Origin: a virus
Reading direction: 5' to 3' (one strand)
Virus record (IMG/VR): IMGVR_UViG_3300028800_000282
Span: 1-26,738 of that record
DNA length: 26,738 nucleotides
The stretch's first letter is position 1; the number at the start of each line of letters is the position of its first letter. Below are positions 1-23,993 of the stretch, piece after piece. Below the pieces are notes generated by a model, which saw nothing but the letters and a program-made list of their open reading frames with translations, was not told the origin of the DNA and did not search any database. Position numbers and translations under genes: made by a program.

Positions 1-184
1 TCGTGATGTTCAACCGATGCACACGTTTGATCTCGATATGACAACCGTCAGGACCACCAGCAAGATCCCCTCTCGCGGACTGCGCGCGCCCGTCAGACGT
101 CCGGCGGGCGTTAGGCCACCCGTAGTCCCGGAAGATGTGGACGGCCTCCAGCTCGCCGCGTTTGCCTTTCGCGCGGGAGTTCAT
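1..184 (-). CDS. Holliday-junction-resolvase-like PD-(D/E)xK nuclease, 3' end cut by window edge
   Basis: The first 61 residues are visible; the frame is open to the window edge, so the gene is partial. The N-terminus MNSRAKGKRGELEAV has the basic patch and the glutamate (E11) typical of Hjc-like resolvases and related phage PD-(D/E)xK nucleases. It is followed by R-R-T-S-D-G, G-D-L (D40) and H-I-E-I-K (E51, K53), which together give the E...D...ExK catalytic pattern. Such enzymes cleave branched DNA during phage recombination and packaging. The ATG overlaps the stop codon of the upstream HNH gene by four bases, so it is probably translationally coupled to it. It closes the visible part of the ERF recombination operon. 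A plain VRR-NUC or RecB-like nuclease is the alternative, and the missing C-terminus would help decide. Confidence 0.72.
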   Translation of the reverse strand, partial: MNSRAKGKRGELEAVHIFRDYGWPNARRTSDGRAQSARGDLAGGPDGCHIEIKRVHRLNIT

Positions 185-483
185 CGCTCGCCCCGCAGCC
201 GCCGGCGGCACTGCTCAAGACTGAGGTGCCAAGCCATGTGCGCCCGCTCCTCACGGAACTGCGCGAGAGCTAAAACAGGCTCAAGATCGACGAGACCGTG
301 ATCGAATGCTGTGTGGCACGTCCGGCACAACGGGATCACGCAGTCCGGCATATCGCAGCCGCCCTGGGATCGCGGCGTCAAATGCGCGGGGTCGCAGCCG
401 TACTCGCCGCAGTTGACGCAGCACCTATCGCGGATCTTGTCGCGCTGCGTGGAGCTCGCGAGGCTGACCGCGGATCGTCTCAT
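181..483 (-). CDS. HNH-type nuclease, probably recombination-associated
   Basis: A 100-aa basic protein. C22 and C25 form a first CxxC. A D-P-A-H-L segment (31-35) matches the beta-strand His of the HNH fold, and P-L-C-R-T-C-H (51-57) gives the second CxxC plus the final histidine before a helix. This spacing fits zinc-stabilised HNH nucleases such as the DUF968-like enzymes found next to phage recombination genes, rather than large homing endonucleases. I chose the internal ATG at 483 because it overlaps the upstream stop by four bases, as its neighbours do; a longer in-frame start exists at 567. It sits between a coiled-coil protein and a resolvase-like nuclease in the ERF operon, so processing of recombination intermediates is the likely role. 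The substrate is unknown. Confidence 0.72.
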   Translation of the reverse strand: MRRSAVSLASSTQRDKIRDRCCVNCGEYGCDPAHLTPRSQGGCDMPDCVIPLCRTCHTAFDHGLVDLEPVLALAQFREERAHMAWHLSLEQCRRRLRGER

Positions 484-803
484 ATCCGTCCCTGCGCCCG
501 AAGGATGCTCTGACCAATCGAAGCGCGAGCCTCCAAGACTCGGACGACCGCTTTTACGGCCTCCCATTCCGCCTCCTCGTTCCGGCCATCAGTAGCCGTC
601 TGCTGGTCAGCGATAGCGTTGCGCTCCGCGACAGTCCCCTGCGCGCTCAGGAACGCGACAGCGCGAGCCTTCTCCCGGTCACGCTTGCAACGGAACCATG
701 CGAGTCCGGCGCGCTCAAGCGTCCCCTGACGAGCAGCCAGGTCGTTCTCGATTACCGCGAGCCTGAACATGACAGCGCCCGGGGTCGTCAGGTCGTCACT
801 CAT
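480..803 (-). CDS. Unknown helical protein of the recombination operon
   Basis: A 107-aa protein rich in Ala, Arg and Glu, with long predicted helices (about residues 12-60 and 70-100) that look coiled-coil in character. I see no cysteine cluster, signal peptide or membrane segment. The ATG overlaps the stop of the 150-aa upstream gene by four bases and its own stop overlaps the HNH start, so it belongs firmly in the operon. Position downstream of the ERF annealing protein suggests an accessory DNA-metabolism role, but no family is recognised. Confidence 0.7.
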   Translation of the reverse strand: MSDDLTTPGAVMFRLAVIENDLAARQGTLERAGLAWFRCKRDREKARAVAFLSAQGTVAERNAIADQQTATDGRNEEAEWEAVKAVVRVLEARASIGQSILRAQGRI

Positions 804-1252
804 GCGCGCGCGACCGACACGTACCGCGTCCGCTCTGACGACGCCGCGTGAGCAGCCACCGTCTCAGCAACCCTGCCGCCAAGCTTCACCAACGCTTTCA
901 CACCCGCCGCGGAAGCCTTATAACTCACGATCATTTCAACGGCACGGTCCACAGCCTCCACCGTCAGCAGGCTCTCGTCCACGAGGTCCAGAAGCGCGTC
1001 ACGCAATGCGGGCGCGTCATACGCCACGACCGGGGCTGGGGACGGAGCCGACAGCTTCAAGCCGGGTAGATGCTCAGTCCAAGAAGCATTCGCGTCAAGT
1101 CGACGCAGGAGCTCGTCGCTGATCGCACGCTTCGTGTCCTTCAGCCCGTTCTCGTAGTCCTTCAGGTCGGCGAGCAGCCCGGCGAGGTCGACGGTCGGAC
1201 TGTAAAGCGTGAGCGCTTCCCCGGTGCGCGGGCTGACGATCAGGTCGGTCAT
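800..1252 (-). CDS. Unknown protein following the ERF annealase
   Basis: A 150-aa, mostly helical acidic/alanine-rich protein. It starts MTDLIVSPRTGE and has a central proline/alanine linker (about residues 70-78) separating two helical halves. There are no catalytic motifs that I recognise. It is coupled by ATGA overlaps to the ERF gene upstream and the 107-aa gene downstream. Genes at this position in phage ERF/Rad52-type operons often encode annealase partners or nuclease-inhibitor-like proteins, but nothing in the sequence itself proves this. Confidence 0.7.
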   Translation of the reverse strand: MTDLIVSPRTGEALTLYSPTVDLAGLLADLKDYENGLKDTKRAISDELLRRLDANASWTEHLPGLKLSAPSPAPVVAYDAPALRDALLDLVDESLLTVEAVDRAVEMIVSYKASAAGVKALVKLGGRVAETVAAHAASSERTRYVSVARA

Positions 1253-1893
1253 GCCGCCACCTTCGCGATGTTCTCCACGATCGGGTTCACCAGCCGCGCT
1301 GGCAGCTTCGGCAACGCGCGGTCAATCCACTGCTGAGCCTCCTGCTCGGTCTCGAACAGGATTGGCTCTGCGCCCGCGCTCAGGTTGATCACGTTCGCGA
1401 TCTGTCCGGCCGTGAGGTGCGCTTCGCCGGCCTTCGCGAAGATCAGTCGGCGTTGAGGCTCGGAGGCAAGCTTCGCACCGTCGCGGCGTTCCTGCACGGT
1501 CGTTGTCGCGCTGTTCCCATCGTCGTCCTCGTCGGCGACAAGGTTCAAGACTGCCATCAGCGCGTATCGGCGAGCATACGTGAGCGCGCTTCCTTGCCCT
1601 TGAGCGTCCTGCTTGGAAAGCATCAGCGGCATCGTCCCCTCGACCAGCTCACCAGTCCGGTGCAACAGCCGGTAAGACAGCGCAGGAGCGCCGTCAAGGC
1701 TCGACGGCATCGCGGACCACACGAGGCCGTGCCTGGTCAGCACCGGCCGCACAGCGTCCGTGAGACGGTCAAGCGACAGGTACTTGCTGCCGCGGAACGC
1801 TGGATTGTCCTTGTCCTTGTGGAGGTCGGGAACCTCGGATTGGAACGCGAGAAGCGCTTCGACCATCGAGCCGTGCTTCGTCTCGTCGGTCAT
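1249..1893 (-). CDS. erf: ERF-family single-strand annealing recombinase
   Basis: A 214-aa protein with the ERF signature. An N-terminal helix (MVEALLAFQSEVP) is followed by the F-R-G-S-K-Y-L-S-L-D-R-L segment (33-44) and A-V-R-P-V-L-T-R-H-G-L (47-57). The hallmark G-S-A-L-T-Y-A-R-R-Y-A-L (101-112) leads into the acidic D-E-D-D-D-G-N (121-127). ERF proteins anneal complementary single strands and promote phage recombination or genome circularisation. The C-terminal 80 residues carry a separate helical region (about 140-200) that may bind partners. Length agrees with the family. The gene is coupled by four-base overlaps on both sides and is followed by HNH and resolvase-like nucleases, which supports a dedicated phage recombination operon. 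Confidence 0.93.
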   Translation of the reverse strand: MTDETKHGSMVEALLAFQSEVPDLHKDKDNPAFRGSKYLSLDRLTDAVRPVLTRHGLVWSAMPSSLDGAPALSYRLLHRTGELVEGTMPLMLSKQDAQGQGSALTYARRYALMAVLNLVADEDDDGNSATTTVQERRDGAKLASEPQRRLIFAKAGEAHLTAGQIANVINLSAGAEPILFETEQEAQQWIDRALPKLPARLVNPIVENIAKVAA

Positions 1894-2063
1894 GCCGCGA
1901 TCCGGTCGACGTACGGCGCAGGGCTTGTCTCCACCACGAACGATCCCTTGCCGTCACACTCCCAGCAGTCCGTCGTCGCGGGAACATAAAGCCAGCTCAT
2001 CGTGAAGTGGTACACGCAGTGGCCGGTGCCGCCGCAACTCTTGCATGTCTCAGTCCTCAGCAT
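1890..2063 (-). CDS. DnaJ-type zinc-finger mini-protein
   Basis: A 57-aa protein with two CxxCxGxG-like motifs: C-K-S-C-G-G-T-G-H near residues 7-15 and C-W-E-C-D-G-K-G near 39-46. These are the zinc-binding repeats of the DnaJ cysteine-rich domain, here free-standing without a J domain. The start at 2063 (ATG) overlaps the upstream gene by 14 bases, and the stop overlaps the ERF start by four. A role in protein or nucleic-acid contacts is likely, but the actual function is unknown. Confidence 0.72.
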   Translation of the reverse strand: MLRTETCKSCGGTGHCVYHFTMSWLYVPATTDCWECDGKGSFVVETSPAPYVDRIAA

Positions 2064-2217
2064 CGTCCGTCTCCTTCTCAAATTCTGGAGTCGCGCCCAA
2101 CGGGAGCATTCCTGTGAGCAGCACCCGCTCGCATTGCGCGATCAGCGGGTCGCGCCACACCTCCCGGGGAGCGGGCCTGCTGCCAATCGCCTCCACGACG
2201 CGCCGTAAAAGGTTCAC
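2050..2217 (-). CDS. Unknown small protein (55 aa)
   Basis: Starts at a GTG that forms a GTGA overlap with the stop of the upstream zinc-ribbon gene; a longer in-frame start at 2244 exists but would run through that gene. The protein is amphipathic, with an N-terminal basic helix (NLLRRVVEAIG) and an acidic tail (EFEKETDDAED). A single cysteine is present. No family is recognised. It is supported by its position in a chain of coupled genes. Confidence 0.58.
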   Translation of the reverse strand: MNLLRRVVEAIGSRPAPREVWRDPLIAQCERVLLTGMLPLGATPEFEKETDDAED

Positions 2218-2327
2218 GCGAGCCCCCGGGCGATCCGCTCGCACAGGTCACACAGCAGCTTCCCTGACCGCAGTGACCGGAACAGGAACGCGTGGCGGCC
2301 ACAATCCCAGCATGGGCCCTTTGTCAT
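2214..2327 (-). CDS. Zinc-ribbon mini-protein (37 aa)
   Basis: A very short gene. The protein starts MTKGPCWDCGRHAF and contains C-x2-C at residues 6-9 and a second C-x2-C (C-D-L-C) near residues 26-29, a classic four-cysteine zinc ribbon. It overlaps the stop of the upstream membrane-protein gene by four bases (ATGA) and is followed by a GTGA overlap. The paired CxxC motifs and the overlaps support a real gene despite the size. Function is unknown; it may be a small nucleic-acid or protein-binding adaptor. Confidence 0.62.
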   Translation of the reverse strand: MTKGPCWDCGRHAFLFRSLRSGKLLCDLCERIARGLA

Positions 2328-2497
2328 CGCGGGTTCCGTGCTTGCAGGACCGCGAGACGACGAGCAGCGCGCCGCTCGTGAGTCCGCCAGACCAGAACGT
2401 CAACGAGGTAGCAGCCGACAATGAAGCTGATTACGCCATAGACGACAATAGCGATCAGGGCGTCTGCTACGCCGACGAGAATCGCGAGGTCGGTCAT
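2324..2497 (-). CDS. Small single-span membrane protein (57 aa)
   Basis: A long hydrophobic stretch (about residues 5-37) is followed by a strongly basic tail (WRTHERRAARR), so the C-terminus should face the cytoplasm. I chose the ATG at 2497 because it overlaps the upstream stop by four bases. It lies far from the lysis cassette, inside the early operon, so a host-membrane effect such as superinfection exclusion is possible, but this is only inference. No family is recognised. Confidence 0.62.
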   Translation of the reverse strand: MTDLAILVGVADALIAIVVYGVISFIVGCYLVDVLVWRTHERRAARRLAVLQARNPR

Positions 2498-2616
2498 TTG
2501 GCGTCTCCGCTCGGCGGCTTGGGAGGGTGGGGAGCGGGCTGGTCGAAGCGCCACGGGCCGGGCATGGTGCTGCCAGCAAGCCACCATGCGGGAGATGAGG
2601 GACGGATGAGAGTCAT
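2494..2616 (-). CDS. Unknown proline/tryptophan-rich peptide (40 aa)
   Basis: A 40-aa peptide starting at an ATG that overlaps the upstream stop by four bases; its own stop overlaps the next ATG likewise. It is rich in Pro and Trp, with a proline-rich end (DQPAPHPPKPPSGDAK) and no cysteine or clear helix. The overlaps on both sides are the main evidence that it is translated. No function can be assigned. Confidence 0.5.
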   Translation of the reverse strand: MTLIRPSSPAWWLAGSTMPGPWRFDQPAPHPPKPPSGDAK

Positions 2617-2933
2617 TCGCTGTCTCCGCTCGTCCATTCGCTGTACAGGTCGATGTACGCCTCGTGGTGCGGACCGCACAATCCAGTCCAGTCGCCATCC
2701 CACGGCGTGTCACACGCCGGCCGTTTGCACGTCCTAGCAGCCTCGTCCTTCTTGGCGATGCCGCGAGACGTGAGATCATCGTCGGCTTCGAGGAAGATCG
2801 GCGCGTCATTCTGGCCGCGAACGGCGCCATCGACCGAGCCCCAAATCGCGTCGCGTGGCGCGGCGTCGAGGATGAGCGGCGGGGCCTCGGGGGTCGAGGC
2901 GACGAGAGCCGGTGAAACGGGTGAGTGAGTCAT
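2613..2933 (-). CDS. Unknown protein with C-terminal zinc-binding motif
   Basis: A 106-aa acidic protein. The first 60 residues are low-complexity (Pro, Ala, Asp). The C-terminal third holds C69-x4-C74-x11-C86-x2-H89, a likely zinc site of treble-clef or ribbon type, in the context T-C-K-R-P-A-C and L-C-G-P-H-H. The start overlaps the upstream stop by four bases. It is one of several zinc mini-proteins in this operon. It could be a degenerate HNH-like finger, since C-G-P-H-H is similar to the second half of some HNH domains, but catalytic residues are not evident. Confidence 0.66.
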   Translation of the reverse strand: MTHSPVSPALVASTPEAPPLILDAAPRDAIWGSVDGAVRGQNDAPIFLEADDDLTSRGIAKKDEAARTCKRPACDTPWDGDWTGLCGPHHEAYIDLYSEWTSGDSE

Positions 2934-3268
2934 GCGGTCTCCTGGTCGAACATTCGCGGGCGCTGGTCCGCGATGGTTGGGAAGAGTTGGGACGCCGACC
3001 GCGAACCTGGAGAGAGTCGGTCCGCCTGCGCGTCGAGGGCGCTAGCGCATTGGTCGGCGTCCCGGGGCGTGGGGGCGCCCAGACTGCCGCTGACGCCCAA
3101 GGGCAACCCTGCGGCGGCCTGATCGGCGGGCGCGGGTTCAGCGGCTAGCACCCGATCGTTCTGAGTCAGACCCGCGGCCGGCTCAACGGGAACGGGGCGG
3201 TTCACGAGCGCGTGTGCGTACCCGTCGCCGTCCTGCGGACCCGGACGGATCGGAACGTTCTGGGTCAC
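2930..3268 (-). CDS. Unknown low-complexity protein (112 aa)
   Basis: An Ala/Pro/Asp-rich protein without recognisable domains, probably largely disordered, starting MTQNVPIRPGPQDGDG. It has one cysteine and no membrane segment. Both ends overlap neighbouring genes by four bases. Real by context; function unknown. Confidence 0.6.
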   Translation of the reverse strand: MTQNVPIRPGPQDGDGYAHALVNRPVPVEPAAGLTQNDRVLAAEPAPADQAAAGLPLGVSGSLGAPTPRDADQCASALDAQADRLSPGSRSASQLFPTIADQRPRMFDQETA

Positions 3269-3471
3269 GCCGCGTCCTCAGGCTCGGGGAACGCCTTGTC
3301 GATCTCGTCCAGACGGTCGCGGAGGGCGCGGAGATCGTCGCGGCGCAGGTACAGCGTCGACGAGTAGCGCGTGCCCGAAGTGATGTAGAGCGGGAACCAG
3401 TCAGGGCCGTGGCACGCGTCAATCCGCACGCTAACGCCGTCGATCTGGAATGCTGTCGCGAGCTCAGTCAC
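3265..3471 (-). CDS. Unknown small protein (68 aa)
   Basis: Begins at GTG in a GTGA overlap with the stop of the ribbon-helix-helix gene. The N-terminal half looks like beta strands (FQIDGVSVRIDACHG, FPLYITSGTRYSSTLYL). The C-terminal half is a charged helix (RRDDLRALRDRLDEIDKAF). Being the second gene after the putative repressor, it may be expressed early. No family is recognised. Confidence 0.66.
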   Translation of the reverse strand: MTELATAFQIDGVSVRIDACHGPDWFPLYITSGTRYSSTLYLRRDDLRALRDRLDEIDKAFPEPEDAA

Positions 3472-3644
3472 GCTGCCTCCTTGGCGCGAGCAACGGCGTC
3501 CTCCATCATCTTTCTGAGCTCTCCAGAGAGCGTCCGCTGGTTGCGTTTAGCTACAAGACGGAACTCGTCGGCGAGCGCGCGTGGGACGATGAAGGTGGCG
3601 CGCAGATCGGCGTCAGCTTGGGTGGTTTCGTTTGCTTTTCGCAT
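3468..3644 (-). CDS. Ribbon-helix-helix (Arc/MetJ-type) regulator, 58 aa
   Basis: A small basic protein beginning MRKANETTQADADLRATFIV. The beta strand (LRATFIVP, about 14-21) is followed by helix A (ALADEFRLVAKRNQ) and, after T-L-S-G, helix B (ELRKMMEDAVARAKEAA). This is the standard ribbon-helix-helix layout, whose strand inserts in the DNA major groove as a dimer. It is the first gene after a strong promoter that is surrounded by CGAAGT half-sites spaced 11 bases apart, the geometry expected for RHH operators. It therefore probably represses its own operon, which continues into ERF and nuclease genes. The leader between the predicted transcription start and ATG is only a few bases. An antitoxin is the other option, but no toxin is evident downstream. 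Confidence 0.82.
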   Translation of the reverse strand: MRKANETTQADADLRATFIVPRALADEFRLVAKRNQRTLSGELRKMMEDAVARAKEAA

Positions 3645-3646
3645 CG

Positions 3647-3681
3647 ACTTCGCCTACTGTAGTGCGAAGTGCAAACGAAGT
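3647..3681. promoter_or_regulatory. Putative RHH operator: CGAAGT repeats over the early promoter
   Basis: Three copies of CGAAGT or its reverse complement lie here: ACTTCG at 3647-3652, CGAAGT at 3665-3670 and CGAAGT at 3676-3681. The last two are direct repeats exactly 11 bases apart, about one helical turn, and the first is inverted on the other side of the -10 box. They overlap the promoter spacer, the -35 edge and the transcription start. This fits autorepression by the adjacent ribbon-helix-helix protein. Binding is inferred. Confidence 0.62.
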
Positions 3682-3684
3682 CAA
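3656..3684 (-). promoter_or_regulatory. Sigma70-type promoter of the recombination operon
   Basis: On the minus strand TTGACT (3684-3679) is separated by 17 bases from TACAGT (3661-3656), close to the TTGACA/TATAAT consensus. The predicted start lies only about five bases before the ATG at 3644, so the first gene may have a nearly leaderless mRNA. The promoter lies just downstream of the terminator of the late operon, so it starts an independent unit. Confidence 0.7.
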
Positions 3685-3702
3685 GACCTCTGAAACGCAA
3701 AA

Positions 3703-3734
3703 AGCCCCGTCCCCCTCAAGCGGGGGACGGGGCT
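3703..3734 (-). terminator. Strong rho-independent terminator of the late operon
   Basis: A perfect 13-bp stem (AGCCCCGTCCCCC at 3703-3715 with GGGGGACGGGGCT at 3722-3734) and a 6-base loop. On the minus strand it is followed by five T residues (3703-3699). It ends the long minus-strand run of structural, lysis and beta-helix genes and insulates the next promoter. Confidence 0.93.
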
Positions 3735-3753
3735 CTCGGCGAGCAACACTGAG

Positions 3754-3783: not shown

Positions 3784-5214
3784 CTACTTCGACGGGCCGT
3801 ACACCTCCGACGCGGGTGACCAGTCGATCCCGATCCCGTTCGGGTTCGACGCGAGCTCGTAGTCGTCATCAGCCCCGGCGTTCGCGTCGGTCGTGTCCGC
3901 GCCACAGTTCGTAGAGCACTTGAACGACGGCGAAGCGACCACCGAATCTGACGCGCCCCGGCTCCACGACCACGGGTCCTGCTCGAAAATGTTGTTCGAG
4001 TCGGTGTTGATCGGATAGTTCGTCGGGGTCATATTGAACTGGTCGAACAGGTTTTTCGTCAGGTTCAACGTCGGGTTTGCCGCCGAACCGCCGGGCGTGA
4101 CGTTTGACCCGCTGGTGCCGACGTACGTGTTGTTGCTGATCGTGAGGCCGGGCGTGTTCTCTTGGACGGTCATTCCGGTCACCTCACCAACGCTTGACAT
4201 GCGGACCGACAGGTTGTCGGTGATCGAGACGCTGGAGTAGTCGGCGTCCTTGAGGAACGGGACGCCCTGCGCGTCGGTCGTGTCATGAATGTAGTTCTTC
4301 GTGATCGTGACGCCGCTGACGGCGGTGCCGGCGTTGTAGAACTGCATCGTGTCGGTGTGGCACGGGCCGTCGCTACACGCGGTCTCGGACTCGACGATGT
4401 CGTAGACATCGTTCCCGGACACGGTCAGGTTCGAGATTCCGTCGAACCTGAGCGCGTCACCCTCGCTGGTGGTGCTGGTGTCGTGAACCTCGTTGTTGCT
4501 GATCACGTCGTTCGCCGAGGGGGTTCCGACGGGCGCGAGGATCGCGATCCCGTAGCCGCCCAAGTTGCTGACGTCGTTGCGGTCGATGATGTAGTTGCTA
4601 CCGGCGGTGATCGTGATTCCGCCCGTGCTGTGGATCTGGTCCACAGTGATATGGCCGCCCGAGAGACTCACGCCGCCGAGGACGACGTGTGCGCTCGGAG
4701 CCGCAGTCAGGGTCGCCTGCGAAGCGGGACTGGCCGTGATCGACAATGAACCGTATGTGCCGGCGCTGAGGCAGACGACGGCGCCTGCCGTCAGGTCCGC
4801 ATTCACGTTCGTGAGGCTCGACAGAGTCACCGTGCAGGACGGGCCGGTAACTTGGCTGGTCGCGTTACTGGACACGATGTTGCTGCCATCCGCATTGTGC
4901 GCCCGGACGGTCGACCGAATCTTATGGCCGATGTCCGTGTTGGTGAGCGTGTAGCTGCTGGCAGTCTGCCCTGTAATCTGGACGCATGCCGCACCGCTCG
5001 CATTGCAGTCATACCAGCCGTACGTGTAGCTGGTCGGACTGTTCATCCACGTCCCATTGTCAGTCGTGAGCGTCGATCCCTGCTGCGTGGTGCCAGTCAC
5101 GGCCGGCAGAACCGTATTGACGGGCGCTGCGGCAAGCGCAGCGGCCGGAAAGATCAAGCAGCAAGCAAGCACGGCGACAAGCAGCGCTCGTCGCAGGGAA
5201 CTTCTGGCGGTCAT
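3784..5214 (-). CDS. Secreted protein: signal peptide, Ig-like module, parallel beta-helix
   Basis: A 476-aa protein. Residues 1-29 form a signal peptide (basic start MTARSSLRR, hydrophobic core, A-L-A-A cleavage region). Residues about 31-123 are an Ig-like module with W67, C70, C77 and the Y-T-L...D-I-G-H-K-I-R pattern. I associate this module with secreted proteins of Solirubrobacterales and related Thermoleophilia. From about 125 to 430, repeated short N-x-V/I-x-x-N units (such as ITKNYIHDTT and LTISNNTYVG) indicate a right-handed parallel beta-helix, the fold of pectate-lyase-like enzymes and phage depolymerases. It is the last late gene, after the lysis cassette and before a strong terminator. 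The Sec signal suggests export from the infected or lysogenic cell rather than virion assembly. Catalytic residues are not evident, so enzymatic activity is unproven. Confidence 0.85.
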   Translation of the reverse strand: MTARSSLRRALLVAVLACCLIFPAAALAAAPVNTVLPAVTGTTQQGSTLTTDNGTWMNSPTSYTYGWYDCNASGAACVQITGQTASSYTLTNTDIGHKIRSTVRAHNADGSNIVSSNATSQVTGPSCTVTLSSLTNVNADLTAGAVVCLSAGTYGSLSITASPASQATLTAAPSAHVVLGGVSLSGGHITVDQIHSTGGITITAGSNYIIDRNDVSNLGGYGIAILAPVGTPSANDVISNNEVHDTSTTSEGDALRFDGISNLTVSGNDVYDIVESETACSDGPCHTDTMQFYNAGTAVSGVTITKNYIHDTTDAQGVPFLKDADYSSVSITDNLSVRMSSVGEVTGMTVQENTPGLTISNNTYVGTSGSNVTPGGSAANPTLNLTKNLFDQFNMTPTNYPINTDSNNIFEQDPWSWSRGASDSVVASPSFKCSTNCGADTTDANAGADDDYELASNPNGIGIDWSPASEVYGPSK

Positions 5215-6338: not shown

Positions 6339-7150
6339 ACGAGCCTCATGCCGTTCATCCGATCCCGCAGCTCCCGGAGCCTCCACGCCTGATTCGCGGT
6401 CGGCGTCTTCTCGCCGGCCATGACCCGGTCAAGCCTCCTGTAAAGCAGCCGCAGCCGAGCCCGAAGCAATGCGAGACGGACACGATGCGGATGCTTCGTC
6501 GTCGTCTGCATGGCACGCCACCGGTCATATTCCCGGACCGTCGCCCGCTCCGTAGTACCGTTGATCAGCGACCGTTTCACATTGTCAAACAGGCCATACC
6601 GCGCGTCAGGGTCAGGTCGCGGCGGCCGGAAGAAGTGCGCGGCAAACACGTTCAGGTCCGTGTTCTGACCGTGCAGCCCCTTATCGGCGTACTGCGTGCC
6701 ATCGGCCTGCGGGAAACCGCAGGCATCAGGCCCGCAGATATGCGCCCGACCGGTGTAGTGCGCGCTATGAACCAGAAACTGTGAACGTTTCCAGCCGCTG
6801 TCGAGCATGACCGACACGACCGCTGAGACGTCCGCCGCTGACGAGTACAGTCCAGGAAGCGCAAGCGTGTTCCCTACCGCAAGATTATGCTCCCGCGACC
6901 AGCCGGAAGCCTGCGCAAGCACCGCGTCCCGCGGCTCGATATCCAGAACGTCCGCGGTCGGAAAACCGCCCGTCACGTCATAGACAACATGAACCGCCAA
7001 AGGAAACGCTTCCTTGGCCGCGGTCGTGTTCGCAAACGCGCCGTTCGCGTACGACCCGATAGCGCCGCGGAACCCAGGCGACTCGGGAACGATCCGCCGC
7101 CACTCCACGGCAGAAGCAGCCACGGAATCGTAGCCAGGAACATCAGACAT
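6335..7150 (-). CDS. Endolysin, GH25/DUF1906-like muramidase
   Basis: A 271-aa protein with a TIM-barrel lysozyme pattern. D-V-L-D-I-E-P (67-73) provides the DxE catalytic acids of GH25-like enzymes. L-P-G-L-Y-S-S (98-104) and V-H-S-A-H-Y-T (127-133) are further barrel strands. G-T-Q-Y-A-D...D-L-N-V-F (151-169) matches the family's terminal WQY...DxN motif with Thr in place of Trp. The last about 90 residues are basic and helical and may bind cell wall. No signal peptide is seen, so release needs a holin, and membrane proteins flank it on both sides. A strong ribosome site (AGGAGGGG) precedes the ATG. Confidence 0.78.
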   Translation of the reverse strand: MSDVPGYDSVAASAVEWRRIVPESPGFRGAIGSYANGAFANTTAAKEAFPLAVHVVYDVTGGFPTADVLDIEPRDAVLAQASGWSREHNLAVGNTLALPGLYSSAADVSAVVSVMLDSGWKRSQFLVHSAHYTGRAHICGPDACGFPQADGTQYADKGLHGQNTDLNVFAAHFFRPPRPDPDARYGLFDNVKRSLINGTTERATVREYDRWRAMQTTTKHPHRVRLALLRARLRLLYRRLDRVMAGEKTPTANQAWRLRELRDRMNGMRLV

Positions 7151-20495: not shown

Positions 20496-21065
20496 ATGCA
20501 GCCAGAAGGCTACTGCGAATGCGAGTGCGGCGGCAAGACCGAAATCGCGACGCGCACCGATGCATCATGCGGCTGGGTCAAAGGCAAGCCCAAGCGGTTC
20601 ATCTTCAACCACCACAGACGCAAGCGCGCGAGCAGCTACTACACCGAACAAGATCTCGGCTACACAAGCCCGTGCTGGGTATGGACTGGAACGACCCGCG
20701 ACGGCTACGGCCGGATCGGTCGTGACGGGAGGCTATGGAATGCTCACGTCTGGTACTACGTTCAGGTGCACGGACCGGTGCCGGACGGCCTTGAGGTTGA
20801 CCATCTCTGCCACCAGAATTGCGTTGGCGGCTCAACGTGCCCGCACCGCGCGTGCGTCAACCCCGACCACCTCGAAGCGGTCCCGAAGATCGTCAACAAT
20901 CGTCGAGGCGTGAAGTCGCGCCCGCAGAAAACCCACTGCAAGCACGGGCACGAGTTCACGCCCGAGAACACGATAAGACGAGCGGATGGCACTAGGAAGT
21001 GCCGGGTGTGCCAGAACCGGATGATGCTCGCCTACTACTACAGGAGAAAGGCCGACCAGAAGTAA
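20496..21065 (+). CDS. Free-standing HNH homing-type endonuclease
   Basis: A 189-aa protein on the plus strand inside the minus-strand head module. N-terminal C-E-C-E-C-G-G (7-13) is a zinc-binding start. The S-P-C-W-V-W-T-G...D-G-Y-G-R-I (58-74) unit leads into the HNH core: A-H-V-W-Y-Y (83-88), V-D-H-L-C (101-105), cysteines C109/C115/C120, and V-N-P-D-H-L-E (121-127). The C-terminal zinc finger C-K-H-G-H-E-F-T-P-E-N (148-158) plus C-R-V-C (169-172) is typical of phage HNH proteins. AGGAGGAAAG precedes the ATG. It lies between the capsid gene and its usual follower, so it is probably a selfish insertion. Two hairpins in the leader may control expression. Confidence 0.93.
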   Translation: MQPEGYCECECGGKTEIATRTDASCGWVKGKPKRFIFNHHRRKRASSYYTEQDLGYTSPCWVWTGTTRDGYGRIGRDGRLWNAHVWYYVQVHGPVPDGLEVDHLCHQNCVGGSTCPHRACVNPDHLEAVPKIVNNRRGVKSRPQKTHCKHGHEFTPENTIRRADGTRKCRVCQNRMMLAYYYRRKADQK

Positions 21066-23604: not shown

Positions 23605-23993
23605 CTGCCGGCGTGCGTCGGCCGCAGGTGCTCGTACGCGACCGACAGAAGCTGGTTCATCGCGTCGCGGGTCCGGATGATGCACCGGGTTGGGTACCCG
23701 TCAGCGCCGCGCTCCTCGACGTGAAGGAGCGCGCCGCGCCGGCCGGCGTGCTCGCCGTCGACGACTCGGACCCAGCCGCCTTCGAGCGCGTCATCGTCAG
23801 ACCGCTTGGTGCGTCCGTCGACGATCACTGGTAGCGACGGCGTGGATTGCGCGACGATCGCCTCCGCGATAGTCGCCTTCGTCGCGCCGGACGGAATGTC
23901 AACGCCCTGCACTTCTGCGAGTGCTTGAAGTTCAGGCTTCTTGAGGTCGCTCGCCAGCTTCTCGGCATCCGGAGCGTCAGGACTGTCGGTCAT
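23601..23993 (-). CDS. HeH/SAP-like protein with C-terminal beta domain (130 aa)
   Basis: Residues about 10-45 (KLASDLKKPELQALAEVQGV, then D-I-P-S-G-A-T-K-A-T-I-A-E-A-I) have the helix-extension-helix pattern of HeH/LEM/SAP-like domains, frequent in small phage head proteins. Residues about 70-126 form a beta-rich domain of KOW/SH3 type (GGWVRVVDGEHAGRRGALLH). The ATG overlaps the portal stop by four bases. A nucleic-acid or head-assembly role is plausible but unproven. Confidence 0.68.
   Translation of the reverse strand: MTDSPDAPDAEKLASDLKKPELQALAEVQGVDIPSGATKATIAEAIVAQSTPSLPVIVDGRTKRSDDDALEGGWVRVVDGEHAGRRGALLHVEERGADGYPTRCIIRTRDAMNQLLSVAYEHLRPTHAGR

Follow-up and report, generated by a model that had tools for sequence, protein, structure and literature searches.

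Small regulators encoded by the first gene of an early operon are known from phage P22, where the gene for the small ribbon-helix-helix (RHH) protein Arc comes first in an early operon whose promoter Arc itself represses (PMC12111858), and from the CI/Cro switch of PY54, where the cro and cI mRNAs are leaderless (PMC4488713). In SPbeta, the phage Arc-type RHH protein YosL is tied to the lytic side of the prophage switch, and the study that reports this leaves its action open (PMC10516654). Leaderless genes with a TANNNT box are also common in Actinobacteria (PMC3160421). Given the PY54 mRNAs and the actinobacterial genes, the near-leaderless part of the locus described below is therefore not new. 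Among the papers searched, none brought together an RHH protein, a prophage, the lytic side, and an early promoter.

The locus lies in IMGVR_UViG_3300028800_000282, a viral record of 26,738 bp that was taken whole and is called the window here. Since the record has no end repeats, it is probably a fragment. Its structural genes, which PHROGs identifies as coding for portal, capsid, internal virion, and tail proteins, are read on the minus strand in the direction of decreasing coordinates. Next come, in this order, a gene resembling those of lytic transglycosylases, one for a beta-helix protein, and the early operon. Some thirty records of the same family were found by capsid searches and then searched in turn; many of them encode integrases or resolvases, and the family is mostly temperate, uncultivated, and podovirus-like. 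The capsid profile had no matches in bacterial genomes, and we therefore assign no host. A search with the 1170-aa virion protein found no relatives, and Rfam and tRNA searches of the window gave no matches. Amid the structural genes, an HNH protein is encoded on the opposite strand (20496-21065, +); relative G006 has a counterpart at a like place, and the protein is possibly a homing endonuclease.

On the minus strand, the early operon covers positions 3644 to 181, with mostly 4-bp overlaps between genes and one stretch (~2612-2245) without a clear gene. Its first gene (3468..3644, -) encodes a 58-aa Arc/Mnt/CopG-like protein. The second (3265..3471, -; 68 aa) shares 4 bp with the first and is preceded by a strong Shine-Dalgarno sequence; its product is DUF7304-like, with a sub-threshold score. 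The remainder of the operon (181..3268, -) encodes an ERF ssDNA-annealing protein (recombinase; 1893-1249, -), the products of two family-conserved genes (1252-800 and 803-480, -), and an HNH protein (567-181, -). The original prediction that the RHH gene heads the whole recombination operon thus holds in layout, ERF included. A 63-aa protein that resembles the DnaJ cysteine-rich zinc domain is encoded next to ERF (1890-2081, -). Between the early operon and the beta-helix gene lies a strong intrinsic terminator (3700..3737, -) with a 16-bp stem and a T run (-40.4 kcal/mol, z = -6.4 for 3737-3700). The beta-helix gene (3784..5214, -) encodes 476 aa with a signal-peptide-like N-terminus, has its own strong terminator, and sits where relatives have a divergent CI-like gene; it is possibly a cargo gene.

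A consensus-like promoter had been proposed directly before the 58-aa gene, and we find TTGACT-17-TACAGT at 3684-3656 on the minus strand, comprising a -35-like element (TTGACT, 3679..3684) and a -10-like element (TACAGT, 3656..3661). With 9 of 12 consensus matches, this sequence is by itself ordinary (1 found in 20 kb, 2.4 expected), and the promoter is believable because of its position and its relatives, not because of its match score. Five relatives, whose capsid proteins are 63-83% identical to that of the window, have a like promoter with an equivalent -10 (TTGAC-17/18-TANNNT) and a start codon 9-15 nt past it. In the window, the ATG lies 11 nt past the -10, and an in-frame TAG 12 nt 5' of the ATG rules out an earlier start and fixes this ATG. 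Judged from the position of the -10, transcription would start at A3649, the seventh base past it, which gives an expected leader of about 5 nt (AGTCG, 3645..3649, -), as was first proposed.

Across the family, an ORF of 50 codons or more begins 5-12 nt past 9 of 24 TTGAC/TANNNT sites, as compared with 46 of 386 (12%) for permuted -35 words (Fisher P = 0.002). In the sample examined, near-leaderless starts look like a trait of this phage family, as far as sequence can tell. The arrangement resembles that of the leaderless genes of Actinobacteria (PMC3160421), where, in high-GC genomes, a TANNNT box precedes the start codon by about 12 bp, although that survey concerned bacterial genomes and the present one a phage with no host assigned to it. 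The predicted near-leaderless starts suggest that the host of this phage group translates leaderless mRNAs well, which offers a hint to its identity.

The assignment of the 58-aa product (ORF 3644-3468, -) to the RHH family, made originally from the letters, is borne out by its predicted fold. The AlphaFold model has an extended stretch followed by helices at residues 22-34 and 39-57, with pLDDT >80 from residue 21 onward. The top Foldseek matches include Arc, and nearly every VIA match is an RHH protein (PutA, CopASO, Arc, CopG, omega, and NikR), the best structural matches having Z of 5-6.6. The model has the beta-alpha-alpha arrangement of the RHH monomer fold, two copies of which make up the dimer of the family, with DSSP assigning no strand in the lone monomer. 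At the sequence level, the PDB matches are Mnt and Arc only and are weak (E = 0.77 and 1), with the RTLSGEL segment aligned to RSMNSEL of Mnt; Pfam RHH_5 scores 17.2 bits, below its cut-off of 26, and the RHH_1 profile gives no match. By predicted fold, the protein appears to be a distant RHH member of the Arc/CopG type. It has a homologue in relative G010 (46% over 39 residues), in which the predicted beta-strand contact residues R15, T17, and I19 are unchanged; these residues, picked by analogy with Arc, may contact DNA. Searches with the protein alone found no relatives in viral contigs and only a match of E = 7 among phages, while the two-sequence alignment found no relatives in viral and genome contigs and, as a profile against the PDB, only an unrelated weak match. 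A scan with ERF returned distant phages only, none with an RHH homologue.

The first gene behind the like promoter is of the XRE/Cro type in four of the five relatives (G001, G005, G006, and G013) and is the RHH homologue in the fifth (G010). In G001, G006, and G013, this gene is XRE by profile (PF01381, E 2e-15 to 1e-9) and heads an operon with family-specific early genes; in G010, the RHH homologue comes first, just upstream of ERF, and its ATG follows TTGACT-17-TAACTT at a distance of 10 nt. In G001, G006, G013, and G010, the first gene is flanked by a divergent CI-like gene of the HTH_3 type. Since relatives with either an XRE or an RHH first gene have this divergent neighbor, the RHH protein fills the Cro position, and the Cro-like or RHH regulators that relatives have at this place support, by position, a regulatory role for the RHH protein of the window. 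In terms of gene order, the layout is that of a CI/Cro switch in which the Cro position is filled by either fold. A search for an HTH_3/CI-like gene in the 26,738-bp record, a fragment, found no match. With a small regulator as its first gene and a divergent CI-like neighbor found only in the relatives, the record is not classed, on its sequence, as a complete CI/Cro switch.

Compared with the described systems, the locus shares with the PY54 switch the small first-gene regulator, by prediction the near-leaderless start and, through four of its relatives, the divergent repressor gene; it differs in that the slot protein is RHH rather than XRE and that a CI-like gene was not found in the record. 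It shares with P22 Arc at Pant (immI) an RHH protein as the first gene of an early operon, with a fold match and a weak sequence match. However, the target of Arc is the antirepressor gene ant, which belongs to a separate region, whereas the gene for the RHH protein of the window occupies the Cro slot and is followed by recombination genes. The likeness to SPbeta YosL is that of an Arc-type phage RHH protein on the lytic side. Altogether, the locus is probably a swapped-in version of a familiar phage early switch, a kind of switch already known. Of the compact switch for recombination genes that had been envisaged, the regulatory role stands by position; the layout is the known CI/Cro type with its regulator exchanged, and the CI-like partner was not found here.

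Our preferred reading, with a probability of roughly 0.55, is that this is an early (PR-like) promoter with an Arc-like RHH protein in a Cro-type slot and that this protein autorepresses the early recombination operon via CGAAGT half-sites. Host RNA polymerase would start about 5 nt before the ATG, and the regulator would be made from a near-leaderless mRNA; the Shine-Dalgarno sequence of the second gene and its overlap with the regulator gene are both seen in the sequence. An RHH dimer would bind the repeated half-sites across the -35, the spacer, and the start site, and once enough of it had been made, the operon would be turned down by negative autoregulation, much as with Arc at Pant or Cro at its operators. 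In G010, with its divergent CI-like gene, the RHH protein would be the lytic-side partner. In the window record, where the CI-like gene is missing from its expected place, an autorepressed early promoter without a lysogenic arm would be left, unless the repressor lies in an unseen part of the genome.

The candidate half-sites are present as first described. The first (ACTTCG, 3676..3681, -) overlaps the -35 and is conserved in G006, the second (ACTTCG, 3665..3670, -) lies in the spacer at 11 bp from the first, start to start, and the third (inverted CGAAGT, 3647..3652, -) lies at the predicted transcription start. Together with adjoining bases, they complete two 7-bp dyads without mismatches: one, ACTTCGC-N10-GCGAAGT, covers the -10, and the other, GACTTCG-N23-CGAAGTC, extends between the -35 and the start region. 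Across the window, CGAAGT words are not enriched (14 found, 15.6 expected), and three copies fell within 35 nt in 22 of 20,000 random placements of 14 sites. The repeats could be incidental, in which case the promoter would be constitutive, early, and near-leaderless, with a chance triple of which one copy is part of the -35, and the RHH protein would act elsewhere. The length of the longest repeat at the promoter is indeed ordinary (P = 0.33), and some 6-mer occurs three times in 447 of the record's 26,688 51-nt windows (1.7%); the longest-repeat test across six promoters is weak as well (combined P = 0.04, driven by G001). However, dinucleotide shuffles of the 51-nt promoter region yielded any 6-mer three times in only 33 of 20,000 cases, and in 10 of 20,000 together with a 7-bp dyad, and the first genes of the early operons of relatives encode small DNA-binding proteins. 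We regard a purely incidental triple as unlikely. As the clustering is unusual and the repeat length ordinary, the operator claim rests on the position and number of the repeats rather than on their length, and the triple is only modestly beyond chance.

A further reading concerns which protein binds. The window promoter and the first coding bases align with those of G006 (46 of 60, E = 0.003 in 685 kb; none of 2000 shuffles was as good), the homologous stretches being 3644-3684 of the window and 3393-3450 of G006 L097, with the first ACTTCG included. A 20-base promoter core had no matches in viral contigs. The genes behind the two promoters are unrelated and are read in different frames from start codons offset by 2 nt, as expected if an exchange fell just after the promoter. 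Since the -35 half-site is common to XRE-headed G006, the repeat may serve another protein or just be part of the promoter, and with repeats only modestly beyond chance, the RHH protein is a candidate binder only. The CGAAGT repeats might then have come along with the promoter as the operator for a CI-like XRE repressor, with the RHH gene recombined in beneath and its product regulating elsewhere or weakly. Such an origin, which we consider possible but rather unlikely, would agree with the homology to G006, which has a divergent CI-like gene and has CGAAG-type sites of its own, among them ACGAAG-N6-CTTCGT around its -35. Against it, G006 has altered versions of half-sites 2 and 3, which the window has in exact form, so the exact triple was not simply inherited; the CI-like gene was not found in the window record; and one-mismatch CGAAGT sites are in excess in RHH-headed G010 (5 against 1.65 expected), whereas XRE-headed G001 and G013 show no excess. 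Such sites are above expectation only in G006 (P = 0.027) and G010 (P = 0.026), both uncorrected among six tests. Despite its matching predicted contact residues, G010 has no exact CGAAGT, a point against the preferred reading. Taken as sequence evidence, the excess fits either the RHH protein or an inherited repressor as the binder. The original prediction also raised further CGAAGT pairs elsewhere, and here the window gave a negative answer, with no exact pairs and no more near matches than chance would give.

RHH antitoxins are encoded by the first gene of two-gene operons, and several of the VIA matches are antitoxins, so that the RHH gene might instead belong to a type II toxin-antitoxin pair, as its antitoxin gene. 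We rejected this reading as highly improbable, since the next gene (3471-3265) has no toxin match. Moreover, the relative of this next gene in G013 sits in an XRE-headed operon, and the next gene of G010 is unrelated.

Returning to autorepression by the RHH protein in the Cro slot, we tentatively extend it: the Cro-slot protein may have been swapped between unrelated folds (XRE and RHH) just past a conserved near-leaderless promoter, and the window may contain a one-regulator switch in which, once the CI-like gene had been lost, early expression came to be set by the RHH protein alone. If confirmed, the lytic-side regulator of a phage switch would be replaceable by a protein of another fold with promoter and operon kept in place, a natural test of how immunity systems shift specificity.

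In other relatives, different repeats occupy the corresponding region. In G001 (L090 13819-13890, -), the Cro-like gene has an inverted repeat that spans both its -35 and its start codon; the 14-bp arms, GGCTTGACTCGTCA ... TGACGAGTCAAGCC, match perfectly and are separated by 28 bases. In G005, the palindrome GATACGATTCGTATC lies over the -10. Each phage therefore seems to have its own operator. Other TTGAC/TANNNT promoters with an ATG 5-7 nt past the -10 occur in G001 at 44435, G002 at 6996, G006 at 38299, and G022 at 23836 (all +), ahead of small genes with no function assigned. Finally, the CI-like gene of G006 is followed downstream by one for a small RHH-like protein whose tail resembles a coiled coil (L097 4241-4441, +), and similar RHH proteins are present in several other relatives.
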